NCBI GenBank assembly: GCA_025786725.1
Contig: JAHLTZ010000092.1
Location: 1-29,107 of the forward strand
Direction of reading: 5' to 3'
Source of the DNA: Syncephalis fuscata
Lineage: Eukaryota > Zoopagomycota > Zoopagomycetes > Zoopagales > Piptocephalidaceae
DNA length: 29,107 nt
Below, one piece after another: positions 5,798-24,123 of this stretch (positions within the stretch are counted from its first letter, which is position 1; every line of letters starts with the position of its first letter). The notes under the pieces are model-generated. The model made no database searches. It saw only the letters and a program-made list of their open reading frames with translations, and was not told the origin of the DNA. Position numbers and translations under genes: made by a program.

Positions 5798-8700
5798 TTA
5801 AGATTGACTCAATAGTGTAATTAGGCTATTTAAACGACTTAATATAGCACTAATCACCGCAGTTGCCGAATGGGATATGCCCAGGTCGATGATCCTTGTG
5901 TAATAAACAATTTTTACTCGTTCCTCGAGTTCCGGTAATAGTCGACGACAGTGGTCTTTTATAATTGGATCCTGGTTAAATAGCTGGATTAGTGATTGTA
6001 AAAGAGTAATTATAGCGAGTATTTACCTTTACATTAAGATGATTGAGTGCACTCTGAATCCATAGAATCTGTTGTTGATGTTGCGATGAATGTTGAATGT
6101 CCAATCCTATTTGGTGTAATAGTGCTAGTACGATTGGTTGAGATAATGTCGTTGGCTGGTGAGCGGGAAAGACGGCAGCTGGATTTAATCGTTGCATTAG
6201 TAATTCTAACATGGCAGGTTGTTTAGATTCCAATGTCTATTGTGTATTCATTACATGTTAATAGTTATATGTTAGTTGGATTCGTTATATACTGCACTAT
6301 TAATTACCTTTACAATGGCTTCCTCGAAATTATTTGCTGCAATGGCCGCTTCAACTCCGCCCAAGTAGACATCGTTGGTGAGGGGGGACGTGTAATGAGA
6401 GGGTGGATTGGTGGGAGTGGCTCGATTGGTCATTAAAGTTTGTTTTAAATCATTGGTCATAGCTTGTGTCTACACAAATATTTATGTTGATTGTAAAGCA
6501 ATGAGTATGGCTAGTATATGTGCTATTAATTACTACTTACTCTATTTACAGTATGAGGTTCCATAGTGGTGTTATTGCTGTGATTGCTGTTGTGAGAAGT
6601 GATCGGTGGAGTGTAGTGAGGAGTATGATGCACTGAAGCTAATTACATATAAATATAAATATAAATATAAATACAGATGTGTAAGTAACTATTAAAGGTA
6701 ATACGCCATGATACTTACGTCGACGAGAGTCAATAGGAGGAGCTGATCTTATAGAATCCATTGACTGTTGCCATACAGGTAACATAATATCGCGAATACA
6801 TGTTTGCATCGTATGTTCTATGACTGGCCGTATTGCAGCTGATGTCGCCTGTTGAATTGGCTCTTTAATTGCATTTGCCGATAGTGCTTGTTGTACTTGT
6901 TCGGCAACTGTACCATTGATGAGTGTAGTTACCGACTATATTTAATCATTAGTAAATATACAATATTTATAATAGCTAGTAACTAATTTACCTGTTCCAT
7001 TGTATTGGCCATAGAGCGCTCCAAAGCAGGTAGAATACGCTCGCTCATTTCTGCTTGAATAGTATCTACGACCATATGAGCTAGCGTGTCGTGTAATGTA
7101 TGGGCCAGATCCGATAATAAAGCTTCAAAGTGTGAAATTTCTGTTGCTAATTGAACCTGACGTTCTCGCTCCCATCGTTCCTCTAATTAATGGCTAGAAT
7201 TAGTACTGAATTCAAATAACATTGATATAACTTACCTCGTTTAGTTAGCTCTTTGTTAAGTAATTTGCCTACACGAGAAACAACATTATCTTCAAACGAG
7301 CGTAGTTGTGCCATTGTTACTGATGCTGCTTCCGCTTCAGATGCCTCAGAACGTGGCTTAAGTAGCGGTGATCGGAAGGCAGGATGATCACGTATCATCA
7401 TGTTGCTTTCCATAAGCTTTCCAGCAGCCTTTCCTAACCCAGCATGTGGAAGGCTATTACTAGGCGATGATACTGACTTGACACTGCCGCCATTGGCACT
7501 TTTTGGTCCTTTTCCTTTACCATGCGAATCTATCGATATGCTACGTGTAGGCTCAATTGCTGTCCGACGTGAATTAGCATCGTGATAACGGTTGCTTGTA
7601 TCGCTACCTCCTGCCTCGTTATATGGAGCTAGTTCGGGTGAACGAGCATCATTTATTGCTGAAGTAGCAGGTGCCATATCGGTTGCGCCAGAAGATGATG
7701 CTTGCGTTAAAAGCGAGTGTAATAATTCGGCTTCAGTAAGCTGGGTTGCTACTTTACTACGATCAAAAATCATTGATGATGTATCTTCGTATAGTTCACC
7801 GGCTACTTGGCAACGTTCCCAGCGACGTGGCAATACTGTACGGAAAGGAACGTGGAATTGCTGGACTGCACCCGTTTGAATGCAACACAGTGCAAATGTA
7901 TCGGCTTCTTCAGTACAATCAGGCGCCACTGCCAATGAAACGATAGGATATTCAAGAGGAAATTCGATCAAATATACAAATTGCGGTGAATCATCCAAAC
8001 GTACATGGGCACAGTAAAGTGATTCGCGATAACTGTTGCCTAGAGCAAGTGTTTTGGTCGATGCATCGTAGTTAATGACATTAAAAAAGTTGGCATGATT
8101 GCTAGGATCATTCGATACGAATTCCAGCTGTTGTATGCAATGACTGCCATCATGATTTAGTAGACGGACAAGTCTATTCTCGTCGGTAGCTACAAGAATA
8201 CAACGAAGTGCATCGCTAATCTGTCCATCAACCACATTCTCTACAAACTTGGCCGTAGTTACTGGACGGCCATCGCATGGTGTAAATACACCCACACAGC
8301 TGCCTTCCGTGTCTGATACATGCCATAGTCGTACTGTGCCATCTTCGCTAGCTGTGATAATCTCACTGCCATCAGCTGAGAAGCAAAGATCGATAATAGG
8401 CTAGATTATTACTTGTTAGCATTTGGTACAGGTTAATTGATCCTATATTACCTTGGTATGCCCTTTGAGTTGAATGGCGCCTACATTACGTTCACCTTCA
8501 ATGACATGGGCATCGTCTTTACCGGCCAGCATTACTCGAAGGTTAAATACAAGTAGATGTCCACGATCGGCAGCACAAGCAAGAATGTCCGGATTTGAGG
8601 GATGCCAAATGGCCCGTCTAAAGCGTGGTTCATTAATATTGGCTGGTGCACCGTCAAGTTCTAGAATTATACGTGAACTAGTACGTATCAATTAGTAATT

Positions 8701-10099
8701 ATCGTTAGATTAATGCTGGTTCAACCTACGGTATTTCACTATCTCGCTTTGTTGGCTGCGGTTCTGAGAACTGCCAGACGCATAGTCGATGGTCGATGCC
8801 TACAGTTACAAGTCGTTGTGGATCAGTGCCACCTTGTAGTGCATTAAAAAAGGCCAAGTCCAGGATTGTATGCTCATGACCGGCAATAAGAGCGCGTGTT
8901 CCAAATAGCTGGTGAATAACTCGAAATTTGCCTCCTTTAGTTGCATAGGCAATGAGCGTTTTAGTTGCGGCAATTGTATTGCCTACATAGAATTTTGGTT
9001 CAGTAGGCATAAGTGTAATAGTAGTGACCTCAAGATCTTGAGTAGCCATCATCGCTAGATTATCTGTCGTTACGTCAATGCATGTGTCGCCACTTGGTAA
9101 ACGAACACCATTGGGTACACCCTTGGCAAAGTTCTTTTCATTCTGTTCGCGTGTCCAACGCGCTGTATGCTCTGGTGAATCGTGCAGTGGACCAACCATC
9201 ATAGGCGAATGATGTCGCTGGACTTGCTGGTCATCGTCGGTAGTAAGTGACAAATTGGCAGCAGCTGGTGAAAACATAGCTGGAGAAGCGCCATAGCCTG
9301 ATTGCACTGAAGGTTCAGAGCAAGCATTGTTTGGATCTGGTGTACTTTGTGCCGTAGCACTTGTATTCGATAAAGATCGCTTTGCTTTAGGCAAAAGATC
9401 GAATGGATTAACGTAGGTAAACATCGTTGTTGGTGCTGCTTTTGTAGTCTCGGCAGCTGTCGTTAAGCTTGTCTCTTGCATCATGGTCGTCGTTATGATC
9501 GCTGGCGTTGTAGATGTTGTTGCTGATGTCGATAATGCAGATTGGCTGCCGATACTTAATGATCTTTCAAGCTGTTCGGCTGTTGTGGGTGTCGCTGGTT
9601 CTATTGCCATCTCGGGAGAAATTAATTGGAATGATCTATCCAAGACTGCGGTTGTTCTACACAGCAATATACACATATTTAATTAGTAAACTGATTTGTA
9701 CTATTTCTTTTATGACGTCACCCACCTGCTATCGGTACTTTGCGACTTGGTGGTTATATGCACTTCCGTGTCATTGGTGCTATTAATGCCATCTAGACCA
9801 AGTCCACCAAATAAAACGCTTTTTAACTCGGCCGTTGACGCCTCGTTGACTCTGGCCTCCGTAGACGCGTTTGCCACTTCGTTGGCTGGCAATTCAGTGC
9901 CATCTTCAACCGTAGATTGTCCAGTGCTTATGGATTGTTGTAGCACATTAAGAAGCGATGCTGCATGGATAGCACCATCTGACACTGCCGTATACGAGCT
10001 AGTATTAGTCGAGACTTCATTTTTTGGTGTGCCACGTAGTAGATCTAGTAACGAAACAGATGACGCTGTTGGTTGTCCTGCTGGTGCGTTAGGATCCAT
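5798..10099 (-). CDS. EDC4: Enhancer of mRNA-decapping protein 4 (EDC4/Ge-1/Varicose) homologue
   Basis: Ten minus-strand exons: 10099-9726, 9656-8730, 8677-8452, 8400-7236, 7182-6992, 6935-6719, 6638-6541, 6469-6308, 6236-6027 and 5983-5798. They encode about 1,251 aa with consistent phases. Residues 1-230 are low-complexity with Leu-rich short motifs. A WD40 region spans about 240-700 (TVGIDHRLCVW; GHTKPIIDLCFSADGS; ITASEDGTVRLWHV). A Ser-rich linker and coiled-coil (KREERWERERQ) follow. The C-terminus is an alpha-helical domain (LSQPIVLALLHQIGLDI; NQDPIIKDHCRRLLPEL) typical of EDC4/Varicose C-termini. EDC4 scaffolds DCP1-DCP2 in P-bodies. Exon 7 has two acceptors 6 nt apart in frame (start 6638 or 6632). 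It is divergent from RVB2. Confidence 0.92.
6647..6672. repeat. (TATAAA)n repeat in EDC4 intron 6
   Basis: Four near-perfect ATATAA/TATAAA hexamers lie just upstream of the exon 7 acceptors on the minus strand. Confidence 0.85.
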
Positions 10100-10784: not shown

Positions 10785-12863
<2,079 letters not shown>

Positions 12864-13447: not shown

Positions 13448-13744
13448 TCATAAATAATTATAGACATAACAATTTGATTGCATATAATTAAAATAAAGCC
13501 ATGTGTTTATTACTTCAAATTTGCATAGCTGAATAGACATAGATGAATGCAAGCTTGCTAGTAATACAATAGGATCAATGGCTAAATATGAATAAACCAA
13601 GCATTGGTTGGGACTTGCGATATAAATAGACTGAACGGCAGTTGTCAAATGGTCTTGTCCTTTACCAAACATATACCTAAAGTGCATTAAACTAGCAAAT
13701 GTAGTTGTAGTACCAATGCTGATGTCTTGAAAGTGCCGGTTATT
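13448..13744 (-). other. Open frame that would be the C-terminal exon if the microexon gene is read in phase 0
   Basis: Starting at the last acceptor (13744) and reading NNRHFQDISIG..., a frame stays open for 98 codons to a TGA at 13448-13450. It is long for this AT-rich DNA and it begins exactly at the splice acceptor, so it may be real coding sequence. It is not in frame with the favoured canonical donor of exon 1. It contains no recognised domain. It may be an alternative C-terminus, or just 3'UTR. Confidence 0.3.
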
Positions 13745-14886
13745 CTATGTTCATAAATGTACATATTATGTCATATAATTAGCGTATAGCAAATTATGTG
13801 CAATATTACTCACTTTCTATTAGTATAAATTATTAAACATGCACAGTTCATAACATATATTGAATAAGTAGTCAAGTATTTTATAATGCCACTTACTATC
13901 TATTAACGCAAATTATTAAGCGCACCAAGCATGGCATATGTTTAATAAATGGCTAGTTAATATACAATGCTACGTACACTCTATTCACATTATTAGTAAA
14001 CACGCACAGTGCATATTGTATGTTTAGCATATTGTTAACCAATATACAATGCCACTTACTCCCTATTAATGCAAGTCATTAAACAGACACAGTGTATGGC
14101 ATATGTTTAGTGCACATTTAATTGATATACAATCCGACTTACATCCTATTAGTACAAGTACATTAAATAGGCAGTGTATATCATGTTTTAGTGCATATGC
14201 AATTAATATACAATGCCACTTACTCGCTATTGATGCAGAGTATTAGTTAGACACAGCATATATTGGATGGTTAGCGTATTTCGACTGCTATACAATGGCA
14301 CTTACATGCTATCAATAGAATTATCAGTTACACACAGTACATGGCATATATTTAGTGTGTATTCATTTAATCTACAATCCTACTTACCTTCTATTAATAC
14401 AAGTCATTAAACACGTACAGTGTGTGCTATAACTTAGCCTTTAATTAATTAATATACGCCGCTAATTACCTTCTATTAACATACATTGTTGAGCACATAC
14501 AATGAATGGCATATGATTAGTAAATAGTTGATTGATATAAAATGGCACTTACTAGATATAGTACAAATTGTTCAAACCACACAATACACAATACATAATT
14601 AATATGTAGTTAATTTAGTTAAAATGCCACTTACCCTCTATTAATACAAGTTGTTAAACATCCACGGTGCATTTCGTATGTTTAATATGGATTCGGTTAA
14701 TATACAGCATTACTTACCACCTAATAAAATCAAATTAATAGCAAAAGTATATTTAGTTGGCTAAATAAATAAATATTATAATTGTAACATACGCCTATAA
14801 ACCCTATTTGGGCTGGCATCCACCATGGCTGTACTGGCTACAAAAGCCACAAGAATGGTGCAAACGACGGCAATAGAAAGCTTCAT
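13740..14886 (-). CDS. Secreted small peptide encoded by a signal-peptide exon plus eleven 3-nt microexons
   Basis: Exon 1 (14886-14793) encodes 31 codons: a signal peptide (MKLSIAVV..., hydrophobic core) with likely cleavage after VDA, then SPNRVYR. The GTATGT donor leaves phase 1. Eleven exact 3-nt exons follow, each flanked by a TAG acceptor and a GTAAGT-type donor: 14718-14720 gtg, 14635-14637 agg, 14470-14472 aag, 14388-14390 aag, 14306-14308 cat, 14224-14226 cga, 14143-14145 gat, 14060-14062 gga, 13978-13980 agt, 13897-13899 ata, 13814-13816 aaa. The terminal exon starts at 13744 and gives a stop at 13742-13740. In this phase the tail reads R-EEEASRWKYKK-stop, 43 aa in all. Intron lengths are 72, 80, 162, then 78-80, and finally 69 nt. 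A twelfth triplet (14553-14555) has lost its acceptor AG. An alternative phase-0 model, using the weaker donor GTTTAT at 14801, instead reads V R K K H R D G S I K into a 98-codon ORF. No homologue is recognised. Confidence 0.65.
13745..14720 (-). repeat. Tandem array of about 12 diverged 81-83 bp intron/microexon units
   Basis: The triplet starts are spaced 83, 82, 83, 82, 82, 82, 81, 83, 82, 81 and 83 bp apart, then 70 bp to the terminal exon. On the plus strand each unit reads ACTTAC, three variable bases, CTATTAAT, then a body with TACAAGTCATTAAACA, CACAGTG, GGCATATGTTTAGTG and ATTAATATACAATGCC. Bodies are clearly homologous but carry many substitutions and small indels. The donor (ACTTAC on plus) and acceptor CT are kept in all intact copies; donor variants are AATTAC, ACGTAC and ACTCAC, all still valid donors. 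The first intron (14721-14792) is not part of the family. The repeat structure is directly visible; its use as exons is inferred. Confidence 0.93.
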
Positions 14887-16729: not shown

Positions 16730-17260
16730 CTAAAACACTTGTCCACATTTACGACATTTTAGCTGTTTTGTAACGCAGACTGGGAAGATCCAGCCACATA
16801 ACACAGCTAGACAAAGTGAGCCATTTGTATATTCCTCGCGAACATAATGTTCTCCTGCATCTTTGGGACAACGACCGTATTGTTCTATTGGGAAGCGAGG
16901 TGTTCTGGCCTGCGCCATACGTTGATAGTCCTCGACCGTATATTGGCCGTTTGGACCACTAGGTTGAATGTTATAAGGATCTACGCTGCCCTGCGGTGGT
17001 GGTGGCACAACCGTCAAGTTTTTATCCTTAGCATCAGGCGTTGCGCCATAGTTTTTGTATTTAAAAGCATCGTTTGCATCGGGCATTGCAACCGGCGCCA
17101 ATGGATAGCCATTAGCATCGACCGGTGGCTTTTCATCACCGACCTGCGGCATTGCAACTGGATAAGGAGCAGTTGGCTGTTGTGGCGGCACAGCCGGATA
17201 AGTAAACGGTGGTGGTGGTGGAGGACCACCGTTAGAGGCACCAGGATAACCAGACATCAC
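16730..17260 (-). CDS. Small proline-rich membrane protein, BRI3/LITAF-like C-terminus
   Basis: A single-exon 176-aa frame with two adjacent ATGs (17260 and 17257). Residues 1-50 are Gly/Pro/Tyr-rich (GGPPPPPPFTYP), and the middle is hydrophilic and Pro-rich. The C-terminal 50 residues run RCPKDAGEHYVREEY, then a single hydrophobic stretch LCLAVLCGWIFPVCV, then KQLKCRKCGQVF with a CxxC. Pro/Tyr-rich N-terminus, short membrane-inserted hairpin and terminal CxxCG resemble the BRI3 and LITAF families, which sit on the cytosolic face of endosomal/lysosomal membranes and bind zinc. Only one Cys is visible in the first half-site, so zinc binding is uncertain. The family call is by resemblance; the coding status is strong because of length, composition and coherent layout. 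Confidence 0.75.
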   Translation of the reverse strand: MMSGYPGASNGGPPPPPPFTYPAVPPQQPTAPYPVAMPQVGDEKPPVDANGYPLAPVAMPDANDAFKYKNYGATPDAKDKNLTVVPPPPQGSVDPYNIQPSGPNGQYTVEDYQRMAQARTPRFPIEQYGRCPKDAGEHYVREEYTNGSLCLAVLCGWIFPVCVTKQLKCRKCGQVF

Positions 17261-20387: not shown

Positions 20388-23300
20388 ATGGGCAGACCAC
20401 TAGATACCAGTAGTAGTAGTAGTAGTTTAGTATTGCCTTCTTCACCAGGGGTGCATACAGCGCACCAGCATGCCATCGATGCAGCCAACCATCCACTAGG
20501 AACGCAGGCAAATTCGTCGGCACATGCCTCCACAGCTTCTTTACCAAGTTCTGCTACAGTTACCGGCAGTGGTGAAGACAATGGACTATGGCAGGCTCTA
20601 GGCAAGCTAAACATTGCTTCTGATGCGACACCAGGAGAGTTGAACGACAGTAACGAAGTGGCTGGCAATGATGGCTTGTCTACATCAGGCGTTGAGGCCG
20701 GTCTAACAATGCAATCATCGCTTAAAGCATCATTTAGCCAGTCTCGATTTACAGAAGAAGACACGCTTACGACGAATCCACGCTATCTCTCGCACTTTAA
20801 TGAACCATTCCTACTGGACGACGAACGAACGGTAGCGCCGTCGTCCGCTGATGCCGTCGGCCAAGAGCTTGGATCTTCTTTTGTTCGTCGCTACATTCAA
20901 ATGAACGCTAATAACGACCATTTTCCTATTTTGGTTCGACGTGATAGCCATCCTGAATTGCTTTCGGCATCGACTGCTGCATTTGATCTATCGCTAGGTA
21001 ACTTTGATGCCGATCACGATACAAAGACGGCAAATACTACCAATGCTGCCTGGCCATTAGCCAATGTAAATGGCGATGGTTCGTTTGCTTCACGGCCACA
21101 GTCAGCAGCCTCGACATCGCCATCATCGCAAAAATCGCAATTAGTAGGATCAACAACTACTCAGCAACAACGAAGTGGCGAACATTCAGATGAGCATGGA
21201 CTAGAGGCACGACGACTATCGCATCCACAGTCAACGCAGATGGACTTATTGCTGCAAAAGTCACAAATGCGTTCACCATTACCATCTTCTAATAATGCAT
21301 GGCTTTCATTTGGTGGCCCATCTTCAAGCAATGCATCTATTGTCAGTAATTTAAACGACACGACAGCTACTGTGGGCAATACACGCAGTATGTCTAATGG
21401 TGTTGACATCAATGCTGCATACGGTGTACATGCTCCACCTCTTGGCCGTACTAAATCGAGTGATATGATGAACGACTTTAATCGCGTTGGCTACAATCTA
21501 ATCGACCAGCAATCCAGCGATGGACTAAATGCTCAATCCAACGACGCATTTATGGTGTCTGGACTGCATACACCTTTTACGCCTACTGAAAATGAACTGG
21601 GCCTAACACCATTTACTAACGGATTTAATGGATTTGCTTCATCAGTTCAAGTAGAGCGTAACGGTGCCAACGCATCCCCAATGCTTACCAATTCAGGCCT
21701 TGAAGATGCAATGAGCAATGCTGCATCGACTGATCCACATGCAGACAATGCTCATGTTGTATGTCCTTTTTTCCAGCAAGGCTTTTGTCCACGAGGTGAA
21801 ATGTGCCCATTTAGCCATCAGCTATTGCCACCACACGCCAATGAGGCTAGTATGGCTGCAATGGCCGGTAATAGCATGCATGGTATCCATGGCAGATCCC
21901 ATTCGCAACAAATGTCCAATACTGGTACAGCACAAGTATCACCTTCACTTGGCCAATCAGATGCGGCAACAAGAGCATTGCAAAATGCTAGCCAACATGC
22001 CAATATGGCATCACGATCAGCCGATATGTTTTCATCTGGCTTGTCATCACAGTCAACTTCAACGGCAGCTGGTCGATCACATATCCAATCAACGCAAACC
22101 CAGCAACAGCAACAGCAGCAGCAAGTATCGCAACAGCAACAACAGCAACAAATGTATACTGCTGCCGCTAATATGTCTCGTCCTATAATGCCAGCAATGA
22201 ATCCTATTATGAACACACCTTATCCATTTGGTGCAATGCCAAACTTTGGTACTCCATTCTATCCAGCCTATCCATTTAATCCAATGTATGCTGCTGCTGC
22301 TGCTGCCGCTGCCGCTGCCAATACTGGATTTCCTTATGGTACAACGGCGTATCCACGCTCACCAGGTGCCAATGGACTAGGTATGCCTAACGGCCATCCA
22401 ATGCCGATCTCTCCTGCTTATCCTGGCTTTCCAATGGCCGGTCAAATGCCAATGAATGGCCGACCAGGCTCTAATCAGCCTAATGGTGCTGTGCCGCATG
22501 ATGGCATTCGTCCAAGTAGCAGCATGTCGAAAAGTGCCTCACACCATAACGGCAAACGACAAGGCAGTACATCACACGAGCAAGAAGCCAACCGTTATGC
22601 CGGATTGGTACTCGAAGAAATGACTGGTGAAATCTACAATCTATGCAAGGATCAACACGGCTGCCGATTCTTGCAACGCAAACTTGAAGAGCAGAAACGT
22701 AAAAACGTCAATTTAATATTTACTGAAGTATCGCCACATGTTGTCGAGCTGATGACCGATCCATTTGGCAACTATTTATGTCAGAAGCTGATTGAGTTTT
22801 GCGCTGATGACCAACGTACAGCCATTGTAGAAACGGTGGCTCCCGAGCTGCTTACGATTTCATTGAACATGCATGGCACACGTGCTGTTCAAAAGATGAT
22901 TGAGTTTTTATCCAGCCCGCAACAAATACGAGTAGTTGTTGCAGCACTTAAACCAAACGTAGTCACCTTAATCAAAGATTTAAATGGCAATCATGTTATT
23001 CAAAAATGTTTAAACCGACTACTATCTATCGACAATCAGTTTATTTATGATGCAGTGGCAGAGCATTGCGTAGAAGTATCAACGCATCGACATGGCTGCT
23101 GTGTATTACAGCGCTGTATCGACCATGCCTCTGATCACCAACGGGTTCAACTGGCCAATGAGATTACCCAACATGCTCATACTTTGGTTCAGGTAATTAT
23201 TTAAGACTAATTAATTGATTAATCGCTAGTATTAACCAACTATTTATTTTATTTTATAGGACCCATTTGGTAATTATGTTGTACAATATGTACTTGATTT

Positions 23301-24123
23301 GAACGACCAGCGCTTTACAGATGGTATGATTCGACGATTTATTGGCCATGTCAGTACACTTTCTGTACAAAAGTTCAGTTCCAATGTGATTGAAAAGTGC
23401 ATTCGAATGGCGCAATTGGATACACGCAAATATCTTATTAGCGAGCTATTGAATCGCGACCGTTTAGAAAAGTTGCTTCGCGATCCATATGCCAACTATG
23501 TTGTACAGACTGCACTCGATTATGCCGATCCATTGCAACGATCGCAGCTTGTTGACTGTATTCGCCCACTACTGCCTGCGGTCCGCAACACACCATACGG
23601 CAAACGTATCCAAAGCAAGCTGCAACGCGACCCACTTGCCTCTGGATCTATTACGCCGCCTAATAACGGAGATAGCGGCAACTCTAGTGCCGGTTCAAGT
23701 ATCATTGACTCGACACCTATGAACGGCCATAGTAAAAGCTCGTCTATCGGCAATGGCAATGTGGCCGGCCTCAACGATAACGGCAGTGGCAGTATTAGCG
23801 GCAATAATAGCACTACCAATCTGGCCAGCCTTGCCGTAGGCAGTGGTGTTATCGGCTCACGTCCCTCGGCCATTAATACCAACACTAATGGCAACAACGG
23901 TAGCGGTAATAATAATAATACTAGCAGCAGTACTATGTCTCCGCATCCATCGACGAGCAATAGCAGCGGTGCTGGTATTAATATGCCAATTACCTCTGCA
24001 CTAGGATTTGGATTTGCACCTGGTCCATTAACGCCAGGCGCGCATACTGCCAGCACATTTACCAACAGCAATGGCAGCAATCCAATTGGCACTGGTTCTA
24101 ACTTGTGGTGGCCAACTTCCTAA
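20388..24123 (+). CDS. PUF (Pumilio) RNA-binding protein with N-terminal CCCH zinc finger
   Basis: Exons 20388-23192 and 23260-24123 give 1,222 aa. The N-terminal 450 residues are Ser/Asn-rich. A CCCH finger at about 459-478 reads CPFFQQGFCPRGEMCPFSH (C-x7-C-x5-C-x3-H). Gln-rich (about 568-590) and Ala-rich (about 634-645) tracts follow. Eight PUF repeats span about 735-1045 with RNA-contact motifs CRFLQ, NYLCQ, TRAVQ, NHVIQ, CCVLQ, NYVVQ, SNVIE and NYVVQ. The tail is Gly/Asn/Ser-rich. TRAVQ and GCCVLQRC resemble the Puf4/Mpt5 clade. Such proteins bind 3'UTRs containing UGUA and repress or destabilise mRNAs through CCR4-NOT. The simple recognition code gives UGUAUAUA, but Puf4/Mpt5 relatives accept longer 9-10 nt sites. 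The in-frame TAG upstream of the ATG is itself part of a possible splice acceptor. Confidence 0.95.
22094..22152 (+). repeat. CAG/CAA-rich tract encoding poly-Gln
   Basis: Two runs of Gln codons separated by V-S encode the Q-rich segment in the disordered part of the PUF protein. Such regions often drive phase separation, which is an inference here. Confidence 0.85.

Follow-up and report, generated by a model that had tools for sequence, protein, structure and literature searches.

Tandem arrays of one-codon exons very probably encode the mature part of a family of secreted peptides in the fungus Syncephalis fuscata, a member of the Zoopagales, and the gene described here is a short representative of that family. 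It lies on the minus strand of contig JAHLTZ010000092.1, within a stretch of 29,107 nucleotides (the window, in whose coordinates positions are given unless stated otherwise) taken from an assembly of 28.95 Mb in 299 contigs.

In the arrangement that we propose, exon 1 would supply a signal peptide and a pro-region ending in Arg-Arg (in the window the next exon completes this pair) and would leave one base over, while each following unit would comprise a spliceosomal intron complete in itself, about 77 nt long and reading from GTAAGT to AATAG, together with three exonic bases. Since the leader ends in phase 1 and the units contribute 3 nt each, every codon would be divided between neighbouring exons. 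Splicing intron by intron would join the triplets and the terminal exon would provide the stop; intron definition is the mode that we infer, because each intron is short and carries strong signals of its own. The product would be a prepropeptide, most likely spliced constitutively, then secreted and probably cut at its dibasic site by a Kex2-like protease, releasing a mature peptide of about 12-50 residues, in some types cysteine-rich. Arrays that gain or lose whole units would thereby shift the peptide by one residue at a time with the frame unbroken.

The gene in the window

Read directly, the minus strand presents a signal-peptide exon, then twelve repeats of about 82 nt and then a terminal exon in which the stop comes at once. 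Exon 1 (14793..14886) carries the signal peptide, called by eye, and a short pro-region; it encodes MKLSIAVVCTILVAFVASTAMVDASPNRVYR plus base 1 of the second Arg, this one base being left over because the exon is 94 nt long, and ends in phase 1. Intron 1 (14721..14792, 72 nt, its donor starting at 14792) reads GTATGT...TTATTAG and is unlike the introns of the units. Thereafter come, all on the same strand, the 3-nt exons GTG (14718..14720) and AGG (14635..14637), a third repeat whose would-be triplet (14553..14555) has an intact donor and the acceptor TAT instead of TAG, and then the 3-nt exons AAG (14470..14472, donor GTAATT), AAG (14388..14390), CAT (14306..14308), CGA (14224..14226), GAT (14143..14145), GGA (14060..14062), AGT (13978..13980, donor GTACGT), ATA (13897..13899) and AAA (13814..13816, donor GTGAGT). 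The start of the terminal exon occupies 13740..13744, where AA completes the last codon and the stop TAA follows at 13742-13740; the same exon contains, at 13714..13731, the motif TTCAAGACATCAGCATTG that is found in the 3' UTR throughout the family.

In eleven of the twelve repeats, then, precisely three bases separate a TAG acceptor from a GTAAGT-like donor, and all the pieces joined form one open frame, so that the coordinates and the single open frame of eleven triplets reported in a first-pass annotation of this DNA are borne out. That annotation had also placed the eleven units in a row, which proves incorrect: the intact units run 2 + 9, because the third repeat has lost its acceptor. 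The GTAAGT donors that it ascribed to the units hold for most of them, the exceptions being the three variant donors listed above. On its sequence the third repeat is probably skipped with the frame kept; the corresponding acceptor reads TATAG in three paralogues (L018, L020 and L021) and TATAT in a fourth (L017) as well as in the window.

The peptide predicted to follow the Arg-Arg is short, charged and without cysteines, and twelve stop-free codons are by themselves not significant, the weight coming instead from the genome-wide family, of which the window copy is among the shortest members. In two of its close relatives (L020 and L021, on C57) exon 1 ends in phases 0 and 2, which do not fit, and these may be inactive copies. 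Since their exon-1 frames misfit, the subgroup to which the window copy belongs may be decaying, and the copy itself, which is short, contains a broken unit and has two close relatives that are damaged, is perhaps a weak or decaying member of a family whose best representatives would lie elsewhere in the genome. The expectation that ordinary gene prediction would miss an array of this kind finds support in the deposited model P0127, which appears misread: predicted intron 1 seems to be removed in it, after which the reading continues through the donor of the first microexon. Because present annotation seems to misread array genes, a part of the secretome of S. fuscata, and perhaps of its relatives, would be invisible.

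Size of the family and coding behaviour of the triplets

A genome-wide count of the exact site AATAG-N3-GTAAGT gives 3183 against 28 in the control, whereas spacers of two and four bases give 59 against 58 and 54 against 50 respectively, and only a spacer of six is slightly raised (38 against 19). Among 100 listed of the 3183 places, 97 are clustered and three solitary. Leader exons like that of the window number at least 150 including the window's own, all at E 3.6e-6 or better (312 candidates appeared at first look; 150 were scored and 150 of the 150 matched). Where the search beside signal-peptide exons proposed in the first-pass annotation was carried through, it therefore uncovered a large genome-wide family: 22 of 29 leader loci besides the window have at least five readable units, six (L022, L038, L039, L040, L042 and L043) are without an intron up to the stop, and one (L023) is neither. 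The leader exon of this last locus ends in a normal phase-1 GTATGT donor, yet zero readable units lie in the 1.5 kb downstream.

Allowing at most one mismatch, the 3'-UTR motif is present 106 times in the genome, and the control contains no copy. When the 150 leaders were paired with 100 of the 106 motif places, in order and within 8 kb, 46 pairs were obtained among the matches listed. Six are spaced by 117-149 nt, and all six were read and are intronless; 40 are spaced by 656-4939 nt, which leaves room for about 7-60 units, and the nine of these that were read in whole or part are all arrays. In the non-redundant arrays 234 of 409 readable units (57%) have the exact site, so that, with the background of 28 subtracted from 3183 and the remainder divided by this fraction, the genome is estimated to hold about 5500 one-codon exons.

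Arrays read to their end or near it have 11-47 readable units. The longest, L028x, has 47 readable 3-nt exons with a longest run of 45, and L036x has at least 46 with a longest run of 43, the DNA examined ending within the array; phase 1 is open throughout both. In ten of 13 arrays a stop is met no more than eight codons after the first acceptor-like site beyond the final unit, a weaker kind of evidence because stops are common in AT-rich DNA; the exceptions are L009 and L034x, which enter an inserted element, and L036x, where the array reaches the end of the DNA examined. At least one gap, that is, a unit one of whose sites is broken or departs from consensus, is present in ten of the 13.

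Whether the triplets behave as codons can be asked of the frame that exon 1 imposes, exon 1 ending in phase 1 in 26 of the 28 arrays that include it. In the 22 non-redundant arrays this frame has no stop in 390 codons, as against 32 of 390 in the next frame, and the expectation for it is 8.5 from positional composition or 17.1 from pooled composition. With the nine near-duplicates (L009, L012, L017, L018, L020, L021, L031, L045 and L046) restored, the 31 arrays give 0 of 442 and 40 of 442 for these two frames. Frame 0, in which the triplet itself is the codon, is also free of stops (0 of 508 in all readable triplets, 0 of 435 in the non-redundant ones), and stop counts alone consequently separate only two of the three frames. 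The absence of TAA, TAG and TGA from the 508 triplets, where positional composition predicts about ten, is an observation in its own right and may come from codon bias or from avoidance of a second splice signal. The three frames are distinguished by composition at the codon positions, whose divergence from that of four intronless paralogues is KL 0.09 in phase 1 and 0.82 and 1.05 in the others. Given the fixed length of 3 nt, the absence of stops from the exon-1 frame and the agreement with intronless paralogues, the units look like translated one-codon exons; it is likewise length, frame and paralogue agreement that support the earlier proposal of a secreted-peptide gene made of an array of 3-nt exons.

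Intronless paralogues and competing accounts of the arrays

Seven intronless genes that share the family leader and 3' UTR (L038, L050 and L056-L060) each specify at least six cysteines within mature peptides of about 32-42 residues, L060 reading on beyond the point where the stop usually lies, to a total of 107 aa. Six of the seven, L059 being the misfit, conform to the framework C-x2-C-x3-C-x7-16-C-x3-6-C-x3-C. Two arrays, L044x and L032x, contain no unreadable unit and have 30 exons each, among them one and two 6-nt exons respectively. Their phase-1 readings, SYEECKACMVVCKDRGELSKEQCQGKCYNQC for L044x and GLEECWACMDECTTIYTTAECRKNNYCAKQCR for L032x, accord with it, the other two frames do not, and no fit arises in 20000 shuffles of unit order for either array; the pattern is descriptive, because it was written after the intronless genes and both arrays had been seen. 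Alignment to L038 is independent of the cysteine pattern, and there the observed score was reached by 1 (L044x) and 13 (L032x) of 10000 shuffles, the two having stood out among 21 arrays beforehand. When the seven intronless peptides were compared with ten arrays, the best match was L044x or L032x for six of them (0-1 of 1000 shuffles), while for L057 it was L010 (23 of 1000).

The other 11 of 13 arrays do not fit the framework: six, the window copy included, lack cysteine, L016 has one and L009 three, and L010, L011 and L012 have six that do not conform, L009-L012 each containing one or two unreadable units. An intronless copy of the L011 peptide was sought and none found, an empty result that carries no weight. 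L022 and L039, which are intronless and of non-cysteine type, hardly resemble the arrays compared, if at all, once the leader is set aside (the best of 11 was reached by 20 of 2000 shuffles). Together with L040, L042 and L043 these two carry the same leader, without an intron up to the stop, before other mature parts, including the CKCRDDDGYCTSC type, and one leader thus serves several peptide classes. For six sequences Pfam gave no family above cut-off, and a protein search with L038, whose reach is relatives sharing short exact words, gave six matches at E up to 10, all from S. fuscata. An AlphaFold model of the mature peptides of six intronless genes, L060 being excluded, is helical and of low confidence (pLDDT 69.5, pTM 0.36).

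The cysteine framework bears on how the units would be used. The first-pass annotation saw in the array a splicing-based generator of diversity, in which differing subsets of the 3-nt exons would yield many peptides from each gene. Several properties of the arrays would suit such combinatorial use, since any skip of units of 3 nt (a few of 6) keeps the frame and since signal strength varies from unit to unit, with several donors other than GTAAGT and broken acceptors; alternative isoforms are also described, in the parts of the sources consulted, for the aphid KQY genes and schistosome microexon genes (PMC7495047, PMC10526429). Yet it is the full reading, in order, that produces the six-cysteine framework in the two gap-free arrays of cysteine type, omission of a single unit leaves it intact for no more than 11 units out of 30 in one array and 16 out of 30 in the other, and the splice signals of the units are near consensus. 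Diversity by splicing is accordingly without direct support and in our estimation unlikely, and the loss of the framework on skipping leans towards the constitutive inclusion proposed above.

Protection of the spacing and of the splice sites addresses a second account, in which the repeats would form a minisatellite within a single large intron, exon 1 being joined to the terminal exon and the triplets never becoming exonic. Exon lengths before an exact GTAAGT in the non-redundant arrays are two bases in four cases, three in 307, six in six and nine in one. Over the loci examined, the coding strand likewise has 335 spacings of three, eight of six, one of nine, six in total of 0-2 and none of four, five, seven or eight, and the opposite strand has no spacing of three. 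The introns of the arrays, by contrast with this fixed triplet length, range over 50-97 nt (mean 77.2, sd 4.7, n=344), which implies that indels are tolerated in introns and hardly at all in triplets. A base profile of 391 units shows AG and GTAAGT near-invariant and the triplet almost flat, the strength of AG and of most of GTAAGT arising partly by construction, because units were picked by those signals. Between paralogous arrays, splice-site substitutions run at 0.22-0.32 of the intron odds.

The units are detectable as tandem repeats, some units and some copies are broken, and introns inside one array are on average 69-80% alike, against a shuffled baseline of 60%, all of which a minisatellite would explain. 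It would explain neither the near absence from the triplets of indels that are common in the introns, nor splice sites conserved well beyond the introns, nor the lack of any stop among 390 codons read in the exon-1 frame, the sole frame in which the arrays resemble intronless paralogues. The unit does contain a protected region, and we regard the minisatellite as very improbable. The likeness of introns hardly declines with distance inside an array and exceeds that between arrays clearly in only some arrays; it fits unit duplication with homogenisation or insertion of copies, and does not decide between them.

Close paralogues differ by indels of 79 and 82 nt, the size of a unit, and by larger gaps of 321 and 377 nt, so that arrays change by units and, if spliced as read, their products would change by single residues. 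Triplets change at a rate at least equal to that of the introns. In a first count the odds of change at N1 and N3 were 4.6-5.2 times (set 1) and 3.6-4.8 times (set 2) those of introns, with 21 non-synonymous and 0 synonymous codon changes in set 1 and 16 and 1 in set 2. The L024, L028 and L029 arrays proved to be shifted in register, the same triplet series being displaced; with these removed the odds ratio over all three positions is 2.25 (p 9e-5), and with the most divergent pair removed too it is 1.58 (p 0.12). Because of this shift and of the lower odds, the claim is limited to triplets being not more conserved than introns. Positive selection on the triplets was considered and is not claimed, the pairs being few and partly chosen for similarity and the sites non-independent.

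A third account would make the arrays a silent store, exchanging sequence with expressed intronless paralogues. The two do have leader and 3' UTR in common (seven intronless copies were read), but array splice sites are constrained, which a silent store would not need, and the spaced leader/motif pairs, presumed arrays of which nine of 40 were read whole or in part, stand to the intronless ones as 40 to 6; we give this account very little credence. Classic stepping stones of recursive splicing are without exonic bases. Recursive splicing, known and enriched in long introns according to the part of the source consulted (PMC13149111), would have the triplets as short non-coding remnants or remove them, and, for all that the sites resemble acceptor-donor pairs almost back to back, it is scarcely credible here, three bases standing between the signals, the span from leader to motif being only 0.66-4.9 kb in the 40 spaced pairs and the triplets behaving as codons.

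The reading as spliced one-codon exons can be widened into a joint one, to which we give slightly better than even credence. A whole repertoire of secreted peptides would be split codon by codon over some 5500 one-codon exons in perhaps more than 100 genes, with runs of up to 45. The unit of intron plus codon would be the evolving module, gained or lost as one residue, exon content diverging no more slowly than the introns and the splice sites being kept; unit skipping could add combinatorial diversity, and the intronless paralogues would be genomic copies of spliced messages.

Comparison with known systems and further observations

Syncephalis is mycoparasitic, according to the part of the source consulted (PMC10386755), and, on the evidence of signal peptide, dibasic site and, in several members, cysteines, an effector role for the array peptides of such a parasite is plausible. 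In the excerpts of the literature used here, schistosome microexon genes have exons of 6-81 bp (also given as 3-81), mostly 15 bp, 10-20 exons per gene and introns that range from 100 bp to nearly 5000 bp, and resemble the S. fuscata arrays in small exons that are mostly multiples of three, a conserved signal peptide and secreted variable products (PMC10526429). The arrays differ in that their internal exons are nearly all of 3 nt (rarely 6), their introns of about 77 nt are mutually related and their runs extend to 45; sequence kinship to the schistosome proteins did not emerge from the protein search with L038, all matches of which were from S. fuscata.

Among aphids, the same kind of excerpts describe a pea aphid gene, KQY1a, whose 37 exons, 6-416 bp in length, are spread over about 45.7 kb (PMC7495047), and bicycle genes with many small exons, almost all of one phase (PMC9168663). 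These KQY/KHI and bicycle genes share with the arrays a conserved signal-peptide region, miniature exons and candidate effector status, while one-codon exons or a tandem repeat of intron plus codon are not described in the portions consulted (PMC7495047, PMC9168663). The exons of the arrays, too, keep to the same codon position, phase 1 prevailing in 26 of 28 and the 3-nt units maintaining it. Homology to the KQY or bicycle proteins did not appear either, our protein search, whose reach is relatives sharing short exact words, giving no relative outside S. fuscata and Pfam no family above cut-off for six sequences. A signal-peptide exon with many small exons of 3n is nonetheless what the arrays have, and on the genomic evidence they belong by kind, in an extreme form, with microexon-built secreted-peptide genes, though the sequence searches gave no kin beyond S. 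fuscata.

Fungal precedents concern individual exons. In the part consulted, CYP621A of Fusarium, a P450 gene, is reported to have a verified 1-nt exon with transcript support, for which an intronless relative served as guide, so that fungal spliceosomes can use an exon of less than 3 nt, in that instance a single exon in one gene (PMC12940212); a functional microexon is similarly reported from Trichoderma (PMC11121469, in part). SP7-like effectors of arbuscular mycorrhizal fungi are secreted repeat proteins with a signal peptide and a conserved intron, but their repeats are protein repeats of many residues and the portion of the source at hand makes no mention of the word microexon (PMC11333574). 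Tandem one-codon exons appear in none of the excerpts on schistosome, KQY, bicycle and CYP621A genes, and arrays of 3-nt exons were not found described in the titles and abstract openings among the matches listed from the open-licence PMC literature.

Introner elements are many near-identical introns in one genome, spread over many genes; the related introns of the S. fuscata arrays stand in tandem with three bases between them. If RNA confirms the reading, we know of no kind of gene that is more finely split. RNA reads of S. fuscata possibly exist already, a tombusvirus-like contig being assigned to the species in the part consulted of PMC7482067. Spliced as read, the arrays would be a limit case of gene splitting, with 30-45 consecutive one-codon exons, every codon interrupted and an intron of about 80 nt removed per residue. 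The spliceosome would then be able to join dozens of successive 3-nt exons, presumably recognising each short intron singly, so that the family could serve to test intron definition and the lower limit of exon size directly, and secreted peptides would be able to evolve residue by residue without risk to the frame.

Two arrays of the family, L009 (C1:475325) and L010 (C1:534310), lie about 59 kb apart in opposite orientation and are 96.6% identical over 2135 aligned bases, their differences including whole-unit gaps. The L009 array hosts an element of about 394 nt (coding strand 7533-7926 of that locus), which is tRNA-like by eye, has a B-box-like GGTTCAAACC on the opposite strand and is possibly a SINE; ARAGORN made zero tRNA calls in L009 or L054. 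A 15-nt core of the element recurs in L025 and L026, and a like element is the one met by L034x.

Rfam and tRNA scans across the window were empty. Searches with the PUF gene brought up distant fungi only, and those with EF-1alpha matched fungi and environmental sequences at up to 91% among the best 120 of 8000. Protein-coding matches flank the array gene on both sides: EDC4/Ge-1-like WD40 pieces (7183-9676, minus strand) and a weak BRI3-like match (16730-17260, minus strand), both below cut-off, an exon of TIP49, a RuvB-like protein (11265-11522, plus strand), and open reading frames with PUF repeats and a CCCH zinc finger (20388-24123, plus strand).
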